64,000 nt of DNA from Methylobacterium radiodurans (GTDB lineage: Bacteria; Pseudomonadota; Alphaproteobacteria; Rhizobiales; Beijerinckiaceae), in the NCBI RefSeq assembly GCF_003173735.1, contig NZ_CP029551.1, forward strand, positions 2,566,001 through 2,630,000, in the 5' to 3' direction. Under the pieces are notes generated by a model. The model was not told where the DNA came from, ran no database searches, and worked only from the letters and a program-made list of their open reading frames with translations. A program made the translations under genes and the position numbers. Shown here in pieces: positions 4,831 through 57,601 of the stretch; the stretch's first letter is position 1, and the number at the start of each line of letters is the position of its first letter.

Positions 4831-5035
4831 AAATTCCGGGGCGAAAAGATCAGCCCGCGCGGGGGTTTTAGCCCTCAGGTCTTTCGCCCGGCCCTCATAA
4901 CCGCACCCGCCTGATAGCCGTGTCAGCTCTCATGGGGTGATGTCGCCAGGCGCGGCACAGGCCACCGTTCTGCCGACAGGCTCCGCCGCCGCTCCGTGTT
5001 TGTGCCGCATCGTCCACGACGCGCCAGCATCGACG

Positions 5036-51432: not shown

Positions 51433-52527
51433 TCAGTAGGGCCGCTTCAGGCCGCCCAGAAGATTGACGAGCTCGGCCTGTCGCCCGGTCCCGGTCTTGG
51501 CGAAGACGCGTTTCAGCTGGGTGCGCAGCGTCTCCCGCGACAGGCCCAGCTCTGCCGCCGTACCGTCGATCGTGGAGCCCGCGCACAGGGCCGCGGCGAG
51601 CTTCGCCTCGGATGGTGTCAGATCGAACAGGCCCTCGAGCAGCGATATCTCGGGCAGCGGCGCGTTGGTTAGGCGCGTCAGAACCATCAGCAGGGCGCCC
51701 CCCGCGAAGAGGTCTTGCGCAGAACGCCGGAGCGGCAGGAGGTGCAGGATCGCCGGACCGTGGCCCTCGCGGGCCGCCAGCGGTATCGAGCGGGCGGCCT
51801 CGCTGCCGCGGCTCGCAGCCACGGCGGATTGGAACAGGGCCTGCGCGCGGGATGACGGAAGGCCGATCCGGCCATGAGCGCGAGCCACAACGTACGCAGT
51901 TGCTTCGTCGAGCTGCGCGTTGGCGAGTAGGACGCGGCCGTCGGCGTGAAGGAGAGCCGCGGGTAGGCTGAGACGGTCGAGGATGGCCATTGCGGTGCGG
52001 GCACGCTCGAGGCCCATCCGGGCCGCCATCAGGGCCGAGCGTGCCAAGTGGGGGCGGATGGCATCGAGCCGCGCGACCTCGCCGCGGCTCATCGGCCCGG
52101 CCTCCAGGCGCCGCTCGACGCTGAACACAGCCGCACCTCCGCTCGGCAAGGGGACGAAGGCGCCCGCTCCCCATCCCATGCCGCGCGGGCGGAGGAAATC
52201 GGTGTAGCTTGGATCCGCGTCGAGTTCGTCGTCGCGGTAGAGATCGTGCTCCGTCACGAAACCGGGGTGGCGCAGGCCGATCATGCGAGGGACGCGCTGC
52301 GATCGGGCGCCCCAGCCCCCGCCGACCCAGGCCTCCATGACGCTCACGAAGCAGGCGGAAGCTGTCCAGCGGCTGATCTGAGACTGATCGGTCACGAACA
52401 GGATCGTGCCTGCCGCACCACCCAGCGCCGCGACGGCATCGAGCGCGCGGGGCCACGCCTCGGGCATGAGCGCCGCCTCGTAGATGCCGTCGAGCACCGC
52501 CTCGTCGATCATGCTTCCCATCCCCAT
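51433..52527 (-). CDS. LuxR-type HTH transcriptional regulator (paralogue 1)
   Basis: A ~364-aa regulator. The N-terminal sensory region (IDEAVLDGIYEAALMPEAWP..., ELDADPSYTDFLRPRGMGWG) is followed by a PAS-like middle part and a C-terminal LuxR helix-turn-helix: LFDLTPSEAKLAAALCAG..., AAELGLSRETLRTQLKRVFAKTGT. ATG 52527 has GGAGAG upstream; the frame can begin at an ATG at 52581. It shares domain order and many residues with the regulator at 54809. It is divergent from the acyltransferase-like gene, which it may control. No receiver domain or AHL-binding motif is evident. Confidence 0.85.
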   Translation of the reverse strand: MGMGSMIDEAVLDGIYEAALMPEAWPRALDAVAALGGAAGTILFVTDQSQISRWTASACFVSVMEAWVGGGWGARSQRVPRMIGLRHPGFVTEHDLYRDDELDADPSYTDFLRPRGMGWGAGAFVPLPSGGAAVFSVERRLEAGPMSRGEVARLDAIRPHLARSALMAARMGLERARTAMAILDRLSLPAALLHADGRVLLANAQLDEATAYVVARAHGRIGLPSSRAQALFQSAVAASRGSEAARSIPLAAREGHGPAILHLLPLRRSAQDLFAGGALLMVLTRLTNAPLPEISLLEGLFDLTPSEAKLAAALCAGSTIDGTAAELGLSRETLRTQLKRVFAKTGTGRQAELVNLLGGLKRPY

Positions 52528-52589
52528 CGCGCGGACGCTCTCCGCTCTCGCCTGCAGCGACACTCGGAGGAGGCGCCGCATGCAACATC

Positions 52590-52601
52590 ACCCGTTCGGG
52601 T
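52590..52601. promoter_or_regulatory. Short inverted repeat in the divergent promoter
   Basis: ACCCG-TT-CGGGT lies in the region between the LuxR-type regulator and the divergent acyltransferase-like gene. It may be a regulator site, but it is short and GC-rich, so chance is not excluded. Confidence 0.25.
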
Positions 52602-52661
52602 CACGCCACTCAATTCGCGCCGTCTAAAAGACCGGAAAACCCTCTTTCGGCAGATCCTCCG

Positions 52662-53333
52662 ATGGACAATCTCGCAATCGATCGGTTTCACCATGTTGGG
52701 CCCGAATGTGGCGAGGTTTTTGCCAGGGGATACGCCCATAGACATCTCACCGATGCCGGAAGGTGGCAGATCGCAGAGTCAAGCAGTCGGCGTGATTCGG
52801 CCTTCGTTGCCGCGGAAGGATTGACCAACATCGAATGCATCGGGTCTTTGCGATATCAGTATTACATTGAGCGAGATCGAAAAAATTATGCCTTCGCGAA
52901 TGCCGAGCGTAAAACTCTGATTGAGCCGGTCGATGCGGTAAGTCTGCATCTGCACCTCACAAGAGGCGACAGGTGCATTCTGGCCGTCCGCCTGACGCGA
53001 GCCTCCGATGCGCAGGCCGACGTTCACCTCAACGCACTGTTGGAGCAATCGCGACTACCCCCCGATGCGTTGGATCACACCATCCTGATCTCTCGCCTCG
53101 TCATGAGCAGAGGCATGCCGGCGATCGCCCGCTTGAGGTCCCTGTTTCAGGCGATCGATGCAGTCGGCAAAATCAACAGAAAATCACTAGCCATTTTGGC
53201 GGCCCGGTCGGAATTGGTCCCTCTCTTTACACGATTCGGTGCCTATCGCCCGTTCCCCGGATCATATTTCGACTCGGTTGCCGGCGAACTGCGGATTGTA
53301 TTTTGGCAGTCCTATACTGCGCAGCGTCTCTGA
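52662..53333 (+). CDS. N-acyl transferase-like protein (FeeM / LuxI-like GNAT fold)
   Basis: A 223-aa protein. The central segment SLRYQYYIERDRKNY (Arg64, Glu70), then EPVDAVSLHLHL (Asp91) and CILAVRLTRAS (Arg110), reproduce the order of conserved residues in N-acyl amino acid synthases (FeeM) and autoinducer synthases: R-x-x-(Y/F), an acidic pair, then a strand with R. The C-terminal half is GNAT-like. It could make an N-acyl amino acid or homoserine-lactone-like signal from acyl-ACP. It is followed after 33 bases by the diiron-enzyme gene. AT content and some codons are less biased than in core genes, which hints at transfer. Confidence 0.6.
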   Translation: MDNLAIDRFHHVGPECGEVFARGYAHRHLTDAGRWQIAESSSRRDSAFVAAEGLTNIECIGSLRYQYYIERDRKNYAFANAERKTLIEPVDAVSLHLHLTRGDRCILAVRLTRASDAQADVHLNALLEQSRLPPDALDHTILISRLVMSRGMPAIARLRSLFQAIDAVGKINRKSLAILAARSELVPLFTRFGAYRPFPGSYFDSVAGELRIVFWQSYTAQRL

Positions 53334-53366
53334 ACCTGAAGACATAGACCTTAAGCGATAGCCGTT

Positions 53367-54110
53367 TTGCGGAGAGACACGATGAATGCCATGCCTCCCA
53401 TTCGCTACTCGGAAGCCGCGCAGGCGACGTTCTGCGAACTCGACCGACGTGTCACCGAAATCTACGAACAGGTCCGTGAGTGGCGTGGTTGGCGCCTGAT
53501 CTCCGATCCACAGACGCCGCGCGAGACGATTCTTGGATTGGTGCGCGAGATCATCCGCTCGGTGGCGTGGTATCAAGCCCACACGACCGAGGCCGGATTT
53601 CACATGTTCGGGCGGCTGCCAAAATCGGATGTCAGACTGATTCAGGCACTCTGCGGCCACAAGGCTGAGGAGGCCGAGCACGGGCTTTGGGCGCACGAGG
53701 ATCACGCGAAGCTCGGCGGCTCACCCGCGGCTGTGGCTGCTCCACCCTTGCCCGCCACCTTCGCGGTCGCTGCCGTGTGGTGGAGAATGGCTCAGGTCGA
53801 GGATCCGCTCGGCTATCTCGGCGCTGAGTACCTGTTCGAGCAACTGACCGCACTGGTCACGCAGGCCGCGCTGCCGATCATCGCTGGGCGCAACCTCCCG
53901 CGCGATGGGCTGCGCTTCGTGATCGAGCACGCGACGGAGGACGCGAAGCACGCGACCTTCCTCAAGCACACGATCATGGATGTCGTAACACGGTATCCAG
54001 AAAGTCCCGAAGCCATGTTTCGCTGCTTCGACTACTTCCATCACGTCTATCCGCTCCCGGTTTGGGACGAGGCTTTGCAGCGTATGGAGGCCGGTGCGGC
54101 CAATCCGTGA
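53367..54110 (+). CDS. Heme-oxygenase-like diiron oxidase/oxygenase (HDO) family protein
   Basis: A 247-aa all-helical protein. Candidate metal ligands in the HDO order: Glu/His in HTTEAGFHMFG (~68-74), EEAEHGLW (Glu96-His100), EYLFEQLT (Glu149/153), and the C-terminal HATEDAKHATFLKH (His183, Asp187, His190). HDO enzymes use a diiron centre for C-C or N-C cleavage and oxidation of amino and fatty acids. The gene follows the acyltransferase-like gene closely, so it may modify the acylated product. The alternative is a TenA/PqqC-like cofactor enzyme. Confidence 0.7.
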   Translation: MRRDTMNAMPPIRYSEAAQATFCELDRRVTEIYEQVREWRGWRLISDPQTPRETILGLVREIIRSVAWYQAHTTEAGFHMFGRLPKSDVRLIQALCGHKAEEAEHGLWAHEDHAKLGGSPAAVAAPPLPATFAVAAVWWRMAQVEDPLGYLGAEYLFEQLTALVTQAALPIIAGRNLPRDGLRFVIEHATEDAKHATFLKHTIMDVVTRYPESPEAMFRCFDYFHHVYPLPVWDEALQRMEAGAANP

Positions 54111-54124
54111 TTGGATTGGGCATT

Positions 54125-54388
54125 TCACCGGCGGCTTTGTTTGAGGCCCGTGCCGATGGCGTGGGCCAGCGCCTGCTCGAAGCTCTCGCCGACGATGCTG
54201 GCCTTAAGCCCGGCGGCACATAGAGGTGCAAAGGCCGCGCATAGGTCCACCGCGCCCGTCTCGGAGGCGGGCGGGGCGGTGGCGTGCGATGCAAGAGCCC
54301 CCTATCCGCCGCCCCGGCAGCTCGGCAGCGCCGGTCCGCCGCGCTGCCGGATCAGCTCCTTCCACCGCCTCTCGACGGCGGCGCTGAT
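54125..54388 (-). pseudogene. Small reading frame with internal TAG
   Basis: Reading minus from the codon at 54386-54388, preceded by a perfect AGGAGG at 54394-54399, the frame gives SAAVERRWKELIRQRGG, PALPSCRGGG, then TAG (54302-54304), then GALASHATAPPASETG, AVDLCAAFAPLCAAGLKAS and EQALAHAIGTGLKQSRR to TGA. Both halves look like real protein, but there is no ATG/GTG at the expected start and a TAG in the middle. It directly follows the hypothetical gene at 54408 in a different frame, so a decayed or frameshifted gene is likely. Confidence 0.35.
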
Positions 54389-54407
54389 GCCCCCCTCCTG
54401 AAAGTCC

Positions 54408-54791
54408 TCAGTCCCGGGAAGTGCCGTTGGCGGCGAGTGCGATGAGCCGGGTCGCAGCCAATACCAGGAAGCACTCGCTCCAGCTTCCCTCGCTCATCCA
54501 CGTCGCCACCACGGTCATGTCAGGCGAGGCGGCGAACATCGGCACGGCCGTGAACCGGCTCGTCGTGCCACGGCCATCACGGTAGCCTGATGCGTCGATC
54601 GCGCTGCGGACCTCCGGCCGGAAGAGGAAGTAGCAATTTGCGAAACTTGCGTAGTGGAAACCAAGTGCTGAGCGTTTGATCCGACCAAGGGATCTGTCAC
54701 GCATTTGCATCGACAGCTCGAATTGAAGCGTCGATACGCGAAAATCTCTTGAAGCGTGGTGTGCGATACAAGAGTCTAGGAAGGCTCTCAT
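54408..54791 (-). CDS. Hypothetical protein
   Basis: A 127-aa frame with balanced, non-Arg-rich composition, e.g. ALGFHYASFANCYFLFRPEV near residue 42 and a hydrophobic Cys-containing end ECFLVLAATRLIALAANG. Internal Met at residue 29 (MQMRDRSLGR) is a possible real start, since the upstream part overlaps the promoter of the divergent LuxR-type gene. No recognised family; location suggests it could belong with the regulator/acyltransferase locus. Confidence 0.45.
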   Translation of the reverse strand: MRAFLDSCIAHHASRDFRVSTLQFELSMQMRDRSLGRIKRSALGFHYASFANCYFLFRPEVRSAIDASGYRDGRGTTSRFTAVPMFAASPDMTVVATWMSEGSWSECFLVLAATRLIALAANGTSRD

Positions 54792-54808
54792 CTTCCCGCA
54801 TCCGCGTT

Positions 54809-55903
54809 ATGCAACGACCGAACGAAGATCTCATCGACGCCATCTACGAGACGGCGCACATCCCGGAGCGCTGGCCGGCGCTGCTCGACCGCTTGTCGGG
54901 GATGGCGCAGGCCTGGGGTGGCATGCTGTTCACCGCAACGTCCGAGGCGACGCGCTGGACCGCCTCGCCGCAGACGGCGAACTTCTTCGAGCAGTTCCTG
55001 GCGAGCGGCTGGATGGCCAAAAACCCGCTCGTCGAACGCGGCGTCCGGCGCGACCATGCCGGCTTTCTCACCGATCTCGACCTGTTCACGCACGACGAGC
55101 TCGATGCCGAACCGATGTACGACTACATGCGCCGGTCCGGCGGCGGTTGGCACCTCGGCACAGCCATCGCCGTGCCGAACGGCGACACGCTCGTCATCAA
55201 CATCGAGCGGCGCCACAGCCAGGGCGCCTTCCTGCGAGAGCAGGCCGAGAATCTAGACCTCTACCGACCCCACCTCGCCCGCGCCGCCCTGCTTGCCGCG
55301 CGCTATACGCAGAGCCGCTACGAAGCGACCGTGAGCGACCTTGAAGCCCTCGGGCTCGCTGCAGCCGCGGTCTCACTCACGGGCGGCCTGCTCGCCTGCA
55401 ACGCCGGCTTCGCGGCGCTGATGCCCACGTTGATCCAGGACGCTCCCGGTCGCTTCGTCGTGATGCACCGGTCGGCGCAGGCGCAGGTACAGGATTATCT
55501 CGCGCGTACGCGGGCGGCCCCCGCAGCGGCCGCGGGAGCCTCGATCCCTGTCCCAGCCGGGGCCGAGCGTCCGCCGGCGATCCTGCACCTCGTCCCCGTG
55601 GCAGGCTGTGCGCGCGATGTCTTCGCGCGCACAGCCTGCCTCGTCGTCATCACAACCGCCGGGACGGATCGCCTGCCGGCCGCTGCACTCGTCCAGGGGC
55701 TGTTCGATCTGACGCCGGCCGAGGCGCGCGTGGCCCAGAGCATCGCGCAGGGGCTCGGCGTCCCGGGAGCCGCGGCACGGCTCGGCGTCGCGGAGAACAC
55801 GGTCCGCAGCCAATTGAAGCCCGTCTTTGCCAAGACTGGTACATCGGGGCAGGCCGAACTTGCCGCTCTCCTCAACGGATTGGGCACACCGAAGCTTCCA
55901 TAG
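54809..55903 (+). CDS. LuxR-type HTH transcriptional regulator (paralogue 2)
   Basis: A 364-aa regulator with the same layout as the gene at 51433: sensory region DLIDAIYETAHIPERWPALL, DELDAEPMYDYMRRSGGGWH, RPHLARAALLAAR; C-terminal LFDLTPAEARVAQSIAQGLG and AAARLGVAENTVRSQLKPVFAKTGT. ATG 54809 is preferred over a TTG 60 bases upstream. The two paralogues flank the acyltransferase and diiron genes and face in opposite outward directions. The frame stays open for 114 codons after its TAG stop. Confidence 0.85.
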   Translation: MQRPNEDLIDAIYETAHIPERWPALLDRLSGMAQAWGGMLFTATSEATRWTASPQTANFFEQFLASGWMAKNPLVERGVRRDHAGFLTDLDLFTHDELDAEPMYDYMRRSGGGWHLGTAIAVPNGDTLVINIERRHSQGAFLREQAENLDLYRPHLARAALLAARYTQSRYEATVSDLEALGLAAAAVSLTGGLLACNAGFAALMPTLIQDAPGRFVVMHRSAQAQVQDYLARTRAAPAAAAGASIPVPAGAERPPAILHLVPVAGCARDVFARTACLVVITTAGTDRLPAAALVQGLFDLTPAEARVAQSIAQGLGVPGAAARLGVAENTVRSQLKPVFAKTGTSGQAELAALLNGLGTPKLP

Positions 55904-56262: not shown

Positions 56263-56571
56263 TCAAGCTATGGAGCCGTGTTCGCGGCTGAGCGCCTCCA
56301 GAATGGCGCACACGCGGCCTTCGGCCCCCCTCACCACGCCCTTACGCGCCCAATCCGGCCGGACCTGCTCGATCTGTCGCGCAGCGGTACTGATCTCTCG
56401 ATCGAGCATCTGGAGGATATCTCGTCCCTCAGCGGGCATCGCGTCGAGCATGACGGCGGCGACCGATTGGAACACGGCGTTCAGGAAGTCGAACGCTATC
56501 TCAGCTTCGGCAGCATCTGCAATGATGTCTGCAGACAACTTCGTGATATCACGTTGACCGATTCCAGCCAC
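56263..56571 (-). CDS. Hypothetical small protein A (paralogue of 56682-56954)
   Basis: A 102-aa protein, start GTG with GGGG 9 bases upstream. The C-terminal half DREISTAARQIEQVRPDW then RKGVVRGAEGRVCAILEAL matches its neighbour's DEIAAAARQVEADHPDL, RAGVVEGATHRVCTVLQSA. Helical, acidic N-terminal half. No recognised family. The pair lies between the regulator locus and the recombinase remnant, so it may be cargo of an integrated element. Confidence 0.55.
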   Translation of the reverse strand: MAGIGQRDITKLSADIIADAAEAEIAFDFLNAVFQSVAAVMLDAMPAEGRDILQMLDREISTAARQIEQVRPDWARKGVVRGAEGRVCAILEALSREHGSIA

Positions 56572-56681
56572 TGGCGTCGCCCCATTTTGTTGAGCGAAGC
56601 CTAGCCGGTTCGCAGGCGAACTCCAGCGTTGCGACTGCAACCAATGCGCGCACCCACCGCGATGCCGGGGCGGGCGCGCCC

Positions 56682-56954
56682 TCAGCCGAACGTCCGCGGC
56701 CACGCGCCGGCCGACTGCAGAACCGTACAGACCCGATGCGTCGCGCCCTCGACGACACCTGCCCGCATCAGGTCCGGATGGTCCGCCTCTACCTGACGCG
56801 CCGCTGCGGCAATCTCGTCGTGCAGGCGCTGCAGCCGCCGCAGGCCGCCGACCGGATCGGCACGCACCAGTTCCGCGCCGAGCGTGCGCACCACCTCGCT
56901 CAGCATCCGAACCGTCAGCCGGTCGAGGGCTGCGTCCGCTCCGTCTTGGCCCAT
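56682..56954 (-). CDS. Hypothetical small protein B (paralogue of 56263-56571)
   Basis: A 90-aa protein beginning MGQDGADAALDRLTVRMLSE. It shares the pattern D-E/R-I-x-x-AARQ-(I/V)-E...PD...GVV.GA..RVC.(I/V)L with protein A. ATG 56954 is preferred since upstream residues are Gly/Trp-rich and shadow-like. The two are same-strand and 110 bases apart, pointing to tandem duplication and divergence. Confidence 0.55.
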   Translation of the reverse strand: MGQDGADAALDRLTVRMLSEVVRTLGAELVRADPVGGLRRLQRLHDEIAAAARQVEADHPDLMRAGVVEGATHRVCTVLQSAGAWPRTFG

Positions 56955-57019
56955 CGCGTGCCCTGCACCGCTATGCCCCCATCCCCGTGTCCAGCCCCCT
57001 ACACCGCGGAGAATCACGC

Positions 57020-57295
57020 GTGAACAGCGTCCGTCACTGCCTCGTGCGCGTGCCCGACCTCGCCCCGGTCACATCCGCTACCATCCTGGCCGCGCACGTG
57101 GTCACCGAGGCCCACGGCCCTGGCCTCGCTCTCGACCTCCTGTCGTATGGCGCGACGCGCTTCGTGCCTCGGCCCGAAGCCCTCTAGGCCGAGGCCGAGG
57201 CGCTGCAGGCCCCTCAGCTCAACCACGCGGTGGCTGAAATGGCGCTGCGCCTCACACTCGTCGCGGGCGCCATTCTGGCCCCCAAAAAGGGACGA
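57020..57295 (+). pseudogene. Phage/island-type small gene interrupted by TAG
   Basis: GTG at 57020 has GGAGA about 9 bases upstream. The frame reads NSVRHCLVRVPDLAPVTSAT, ILAAHVVTEAHGPGLALDLL, GATRFVPRPEAL, then TAG (57185-57187), then AEAEALQAPQLNHAVAEMAL, RLTLVAGAILAP to about 57285, where it meets the antisense recombinase remnant. The sequence on both sides is coding-like. Either a truncated 55-aa product is made or the gene is dead. Confidence 0.4.
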
Positions 57296-57327
57296 CGGCT
57301 CCGGCGATCTTCGCCGAGACGGACTGC

Positions 57328-57601
57328 GCAGCACCTGCGCCTTCGCCTCGCCGGGCGTTCGGCGCGACTCGGCAACGTAGCGGTCGATCACCGCACCGAG
57401 CGCCGGATCCCCGATCTTGGCTCGGGTGAGCGCTCCCGATCCCTCCAGCTCGGCCTCGCGCCTCTTGATCCAGGCGGCAGCTGCCGGGCGGCGGTCGAAG
57501 GTCTTGGTCTCCCGATGCGCCTGCCCATCTGTTTGGACGGCCACCTGGGCGTGGTATCCGAGCGAGTCATCCTTGCGCTTGCGCACGATGATGGTGCCCA
57601 C
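57328..57601 (-). pseudogene. Tyrosine recombinase (integrase), N-terminal remnant
   Basis: The first ~91 residues from GTG at 57601 match the arm-binding N-terminus of phage-type integrases: GTIIVRKRKDDSLGYHAQVA, HRETKTFDRRPAAAAWIKRR, PALGAVIDRYVAESRRTPGE. It breaks off before the catalytic domain; the frame stays open to 57014 but only as the antisense of another coding-like frame. It lies with its start against dusA, whose 5' end is a known attachment site for a family of integrases, so it marks the edge of an old integrated element. Confidence 0.7.

Follow-up and report, generated by a model that had tools for sequence, protein, structure and literature searches.

VqmA, the receptor of the autoinducer DPO, joins a PAS domain to a LuxR-type helix-turn-helix (HTH), and many alphaproteobacterial LuxR-type regulators have no known ligand. 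Among described enzyme systems, the tyz/oxz clusters, which make acyl-oxazolones, encode a FeeM-fold acyltransferase, a ThiF-type cyclase and an oxidase of the flavin nitroreductase superfamily that uses O2 for oxidative tailoring (excerpts of PMC10404671). The R1-I1-crotonase circuit of Mesorhizobium links a LuxR-type regulator, an acyl-transferring synthase and a tailoring enzyme, and is built on a true LuxI/LuxR acyl-homoserine lactone (AHL) pair (excerpts of PMC10470506). Haem-oxygenase-like diiron oxidases/oxygenases (HDOs), among them UndA, BesC, SznF, AetD and FlcD, share PF14518 and a metal ligand set of three histidines and three carboxylates; about a dozen are functionally validated, and those characterised so far act predominantly on fatty or amino acids (excerpts of PMC13108848). 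Here we analyse a locus in a 64,000-nucleotide stretch of Methylobacterium radiodurans (NCBI RefSeq GCF_003173735.1, contig NZ_CP029551.1, positions 2,566,001 to 2,630,000; hereafter the window), in which genes for a putative N-acyltransferase (AT) and an HDO are bracketed by two genes for LuxR-type regulators, R1 and R2.

The locus resembles the tyz/oxz clusters in its pairing of acyltransferase and O2-dependent oxidase, but the oxidase is of the diiron type and no cyclase was recognised. With the Mesorhizobium circuit it shares the linkage of regulator, synthase and tailoring enzyme in an alphaproteobacterium, whereas neither an AHL-binding domain nor the LuxI-type glutamate was found. The HDO has the domain and ligand set of its superfamily, yet the excerpts of PMC13108848 name no characterised HDO as partner of a FeeM-type acyltransferase. 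By profile, the AT probably belongs to the same superfamily as the FeeM-type N-acyl amino acid synthases (PF21926) and lies nearest to that family's fusions with a cNMP domain; it differs in having no PF21926 match of its own, no cNMP domain, and an HDO and PAS-LuxR-type regulators as partners. Like VqmA, the window's regulators carry PAS (here a predicted PAS-like domain) and then HTH, but they possess an additional N-terminal part of about 150 residues, and profile similarity to VqmA is limited to the HTH. Searches of open-licence PMC papers found no description of an HDO combined with a FeeM-branch enzyme and regulators of this type. The cassette may represent a type of chemical signalling not previously described in bacteria; were this true, HDO enzymes would gain a role in signalling or lipid chemistry.

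Recurrence of the cassette

The four genes R1, AT, HDO and R2 had been proposed in an earlier note on this DNA, and all four frames are present, together with a candidate operator:

51433..52581, minus strand: R1, PAS-like and LuxR-HTH regulator, divergent from the enzyme genes; GerE match below cut-off, supported by the family alignment
52588..52603, plus strand: candidate operator TCACCCGTTCGGGTCA, 11 of the 12 fixed letters of TCACCC-N4-GGGTGA
52662..53333, plus strand: AT, FeeM/LuxI-superfamily (GNAT-like) N-acyltransferase by profile placement, 223 aa, atypical codon use
53382..54110, plus strand: HDO, haem-oxygenase-like diiron oxidase/oxygenase (PF14518), 242 aa from ATG 53382
54749..55903, plus strand: R2, PAS-like and LuxR-HTH regulator, R1 paralogue, probable start 54809

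A search of 72,556 plasmid records with the AT gave one match, on pCB3171_5 of Rhizobium sp. CB3171 (37.2% identity, 82% covered), and the same plasmid was the single match of the HDO (76.1%). Its gene order is regulator (minus), AT (plus), HDO (plus), regulator (minus), with both regulators from the window's family. When the HDO pair was used to search 394 genomes from a single family of the order, one more genome was added (G1022, E 1.6e-44). In its locus, L081, HDO and then AT lie on one strand and a same-family regulator is divergent from the HDO, so that the enzyme order is reversed relative to the window with the partners unchanged; the assignments have E-values of 1.3e-109 (regulator profile), 3.5e-8 (AT pair profile) and 2.4e-13 (FeeM/LuxI profile on the AT), and no second regulator was found at L081. 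AT, HDO and the regulator family thus occur together in all three AT-bearing loci found and the full four-gene set in two of them, which answers the earlier question of whether these genes ever travel together. All three bacteria belong to one order. With these neighbours found together again in two further genomes, the grouping is not attributable to chance, and the cassette as a unit is well supported.

Directly behind the AT gene of L081 lies a flavodoxin gene (PF00258, 2.6e-9), whose product is a plausible electron donor. A convergent membrane-acyltransferase-type gene (PF01757, 4.9e-33) beyond the L081 regulator was taken as unrelated.

The cassette is rare. The AT was found in none of 148 relatives, and its sole match in 396 other genomes of the order (G294, E 9.6e-4 over 71 residues) was rejected as spurious, the frame reading like a SET-domain protein. 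At E<=1e-10 the HDO was matched in one of 384 other genomes of the class (a 677-aa frame), in one of 394 (G1022) and in three of 396 other genomes of the order (G292, G377 and a 726-aa frame in G094), and at E<=1e-15 in two of 12 genomes in the genus of G292 (G292 and G377) and in one of 161 relatives of G1022 (itself), samples that overlap and whose counts are not additive. Scans of genome contigs with six short peptide patterns for the AT, and of genome and viral contigs with two patterns each for the HDO pair, confirmed no relative, and such scans can miss diverged loci.

Following up on the gene boundaries, a Shine-Dalgarno-like GGAGAG stands before ATG 53382 and not before TTG 53367. The HDO therefore probably starts at this ATG, and the gap to the AT is probably 48 bp, not the 33 bases given previously. 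Judging by where homologues start, the R1 reading frame probably opens near 52512, which would leave 149 bp between R1 and AT. A 127-aa minus-strand frame (window 54408-54791) without Pfam or plasmid match overlaps the start of R2.

Regulators and candidate operator

R1 and R2 are 40-42% identical. Individually they match GerE, the LuxR-type HTH, below the Pfam cut-off (0.055 and 9.9e-5, respectively), but in the family alignment all 12 members match it at E<=0.1, with the HTH at the C-terminus and a predicted PAS-like domain ahead of it. The earlier view of two regulators with a common N-terminal part and a LuxR HTH is borne out by these comparisons. In structural comparison the regulator model comes closest to the light sensor EL222, with VqmA among the top matches, in a fold search where absence of a family from the list does not mean its exclusion.

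With at most one mismatch, the palindrome TCACCC-N4-GGGTGA has a single site in the window's 64 kb (52588, in the R1/AT divergent gap), two in the Rhizobium locus of 30.6 kb (14704 and 14899) and one, a perfect match, in the L081 locus of 16.5 kb (8588). Every one of these sites lies in a divergent regulator/enzyme gap, and the 111 kb scanned contain no other. Whole-source shuffles reach the site counts in 22/100 cases for the window, 0/100 for Rhizobium and 9/200 for L081; it is therefore the position of the sites, more than their bare count, that is informative. The gaps of the window and L081 also have the 14-mer TCACCCGTTCGGGT in common, a length reached by 2 of 2000 dinucleotide shuffles, and none of 2000 shuffles gave as many as the two sites of the Rhizobium gap, statistics that are partly post hoc, as the palindrome was first spotted by eye. 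It is likely, judging from site placement, that the cassette is controlled through this candidate operator.

A genome-wide regulon was considered and rejected. The M. radiodurans genome holds 19 sites with at most one mismatch against 3 for a backward control, arguably an excess. The 18 sites other than that of the cassette were nevertheless taken as background, since one end is GGGCGA in 14 of them and GTTC is missing from the middle of all 18. Upstream of 26 non-cassette regulators of the family, the best site has 10/12 fixed letters in one case (L013), 9/12 in eight and 7-8/12 otherwise; these operator scans and both trees excluded two plasmid regulators whose frames are broken (L009, L011). 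A family-wide autoregulation through the palindrome is not supported by this distribution but is still conceivable.

The L013 site (4914-4929, TCCCCCTTTTGGGGGA) belongs to a regulator on a Shinella plasmid and lies some 70 bp upstream of its annotated start; the annotated neighbours of this regulator, a lauroyl acyltransferase and a cytochrome P450, are perhaps an analogous acyl and oxidase set. Palindrome-like sites near regulator starts were also seen at L072 (7282-7297) and, in the M. radiodurans genome, at L073 (7300-7315). Elsewhere, same-family regulators adjoin a long repetitive protein in two congeners (L066:4944-11500, L070:4843-13501) or stand near an annotated calcium-binding protein (L008) or M10 metallopeptidase (L013). 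Such neighbours are a possible target class of the regulator family.

Enzymes and their predicted chemistry

The AT alone has no match in Pfam, NCBIfam or PHROG; the HDO likewise has none in PHROG. A profile of the AT with one relative matches FeeM-family proteins at E 1.9e-5 and 0.0021, compared with 0.28 and 2 for the AT alone. The set searched with this pair profile omitted three of 25 FeeM-hit proteins (L024, L028, L038), and the L028 protein was later matched by it in the wider locus L044 (20.7 bits). In hhalign the AT reaches 96.6% with a set composed of the L081 AT and cNMP-domain proteins and 0.2% with five classical FeeM proteins. The L081 AT itself exceeds the Pfam cut-off for FeeM (32.6 bits versus 27), and PF21926 has no match in the M. 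radiodurans genome. Two arginines, R64 and R110, are common to all 12 aligned AT, FeeM and LuxI proteins, and there is a weak profile match to GNAT serotonin N-acetyltransferase (E 0.029). A single-sequence structure model was too poor for fold assignment (mean pLDDT 34.9). The profiles point to the FeeM/LuxI superfamily, as proposed earlier for this protein.

The assignment of the second enzyme as a haem-oxygenase-like diiron protein agrees with a PF14518 match at 1.5e-11, and all three cassette HDOs exceed the cut-off. The probable ligand set, assigned by motif and not from a structure, comprises E97 (or E96), H100, E153, H183, D187 and H190 and is present in all three, with Asp at the position of E153 in L081. 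Two relatives with 44-47% identity (G292, G377) have neither AT nor regulator beside them; E97, H183, D187 and H190 are gone from both, H100 from one, and E153 is kept in each. Within this subfamily of five members found, the set is therefore kept in 3/3 cassette members and mostly lost in 2/2 outside. The solitary relatives at L086 (7676-8401) and L087 (7916-8635), which keep a C-terminal VYPLPVWDEA motif, are possibly pseudoenzymes. Matches in G741 and G094 (E about 1e-11 to 1e-10) fall in frames of 677 and 726 aa and were not counted in the subfamily. At L005 (10-2028) and L088 (4214-6316), the HDO profile is matched by the C-terminal part of frames some 670-700 aa long, and the start of the L005 frame reads like an AMP-binding ligase, which suggests ligase-HDO fusions.

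Taken together, the AT and HDO are likely to yield an oxidised N-acyl amide. It is fairly well supported that the AT would move a fatty acyl chain onto an amino group, that of an amino acid (as in FeeM) being a more likely acceptor than S-adenosylmethionine (as in LuxI). Likely in outline, the HDO would use O2, with a flavodoxin-type donor as reductant, for a desaturation, decarboxylation or hydroxylation of the product or a building block. Binding of the divergent regulator to TCACCC-N4-GGGTGA, by which it would control itself and the enzymes, is again fairly well supported. The final step is conjecture: the oxidised acyl-amide would be the ligand of the PAS or N-terminal domain of the regulator and would close an autoregulatory signal loop.

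Competing explanations and mobility

Our tentative first choice is a compact synthesis-and-control cassette with a product-sensing loop, an explanation to which we give a little less than even weight. That the regulators sense the cassette product as a signal is plausible. The more specific proposal, a mobile three-part signalling cassette in which a FeeM-branch AT and an HDO make an oxidised N-acyl amino acid signal that PAS-LuxR-type regulators sense and answer through the operator, outside the AHL/LuxI-LuxR paradigm, is possible and held with more reserve. The cassette links one PAS-like and LuxR-HTH subgroup to a short candidate operator and to a minimal pathway of two enzymes that can be expressed, which makes the ligand question directly testable.

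Several observations weigh against a product-sensing loop. The regulator family is widespread in the genus, with one to three members in 10 of 12 congeners, and none of 25 other loci of the family examined contains AT or HDO; these loci comprise 14 regions (15 of the 17 congener rows besides R1 and R2) and 11 of the 42 plasmid records besides the cassette record. The cassette regulators do not form a single clade. No palindrome precedes R2 or the second Rhizobium regulator (best 8/12 each). The proposal of a signal-synthesis locus in the earlier note consequently holds in part: the enzymes recur beside the regulators and the palindrome lies in the divergent promoter, but the family is common without the enzymes and R2 lacks the site. 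Neither of the two outcomes that the earlier note named as refuting it was observed.

The breadth of the regulator family, the tyz/oxz precedent of a FeeM-fold acyltransferase working with an oxidase (excerpts of PMC10404671) and the light sensor EL222 as best structural match all fit a small biosynthetic cluster for an oxidised N-acyl amino acid, such as a surfactant, an antimicrobial or a metal-binding lipid, with regulators responding to a different cue, such as redox state, light or a host metabolite. This is a serious possibility, although two of the three AT-HDO pairs are flanked by two regulators, and in Rhizobium, where the neighbourhood is annotated, none of the genes directly adjoining the pair was recognised as a transporter, resistance or carrier-protein gene, the other two neighbourhoods being partly annotated.

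The order of the two reactions might also be the reverse, the HDO first modifying a free amino or fatty acid and the AT then capping or consuming this building block. Compatible with the other readings, this sequence of events seems rather unlikely to us; it would suit the preference of characterised HDOs for fatty or amino acids (excerpts of PMC13108848) and the gene order of L081, but the AT gene precedes the HDO gene in the window and on the Rhizobium plasmid, and the sequence itself decides nothing.

A canonical AHL circuit with a tailoring enzyme, like that of Mesorhizobium, is improbable. It has in its favour the superfamily similarity (hhalign 28.9% between the AT and seven LuxI-like or weak-FeeM proteins) and the precedent of a synthase with linked tailoring enzyme and LuxR-type receptor (excerpts of PMC10470506). 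LasI Glu101 and Arg104 are listed as active-site residues (excerpts of PMC9654057). A Glu three residues before the conserved Arg is present in 4/4 proteins confirmed as PF00765 autoinducer synthases but in none of the three cassette ATs, which have Leu, Leu and Ile there, and L081 has Lys for Arg. The regulators, as the earlier note had maintained, show no recognisable AHL-binding domain: PF03472 is absent from the matches of the 12 family members at E<=0.1, a PAS-like domain is predicted instead, and hhalign of 26 regulator N-terminal parts with those of four PF03472 LuxR proteins gave 0.3%, a value still compatible with distant structural kinship. A decayed island of unrelated genes adjacent by chance, which low GC, atypical codon use, an integrase remnant and the lack of the AT in the 148 relatives might suggest, is very improbable given intact frames, conserved metal ligands and the recurrence of gene combination and operator in two other genomes.

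With regard to mobility, two features to the right of the cassette are relevant:

57014..57601, minus strand: frame with an integrase remnant in its N-terminal 95 aa, by identity to two annotated plasmid integrases
57724..58740, plus strand: tRNA-dihydrouridine synthase gene (PF01207, 6.4e-81), right of the low-GC stretch

Between about 44 and 57 kb the GC content is below that of most of the window. GC content at third codon positions (GC3) is 0.61 for AT, 0.75 for HDO, 0.84 for R1 and 0.83 for R2, compared with 0.89-0.96 in eight genes taken as core, in line with the odd codon use first noted for the AT; three further nearby genes have 0.97 (flagellin), 0.80 (a chemotaxis gene) and 0.78 (an FkbM methyltransferase gene). 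The first 95 aa of the 57014-57601 frame are 45.7% (a Sinorhizobium plasmid protein) and 40.9% identical to two annotated plasmid site-specific integrases, and Pfam and PHROG gave no integrase match for this frame. The remnant lies directly upstream (5' side) of the dihydrouridine synthase gene, which we take to be dusA. This gene is a known type of integration site, and the arrangement suggests an old integration beside it and past mobility. The Rhizobium plasmid copy has IS66 and IS110 transposase genes within 15 kb. The remnant, the plasmid copy with its transposases, the rarity of the cassette and its codon use suggest horizontal spread.

Left of the integrase remnant, the minus-strand frames 56263-56703 and 56682-57017 share by eye a motif (AAARQ(I/V)E ... 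GVV.GA..RVC), as if a small gene had been duplicated; the latter frame weakly matches PHROG 38685, of unknown function (6.2e-4).

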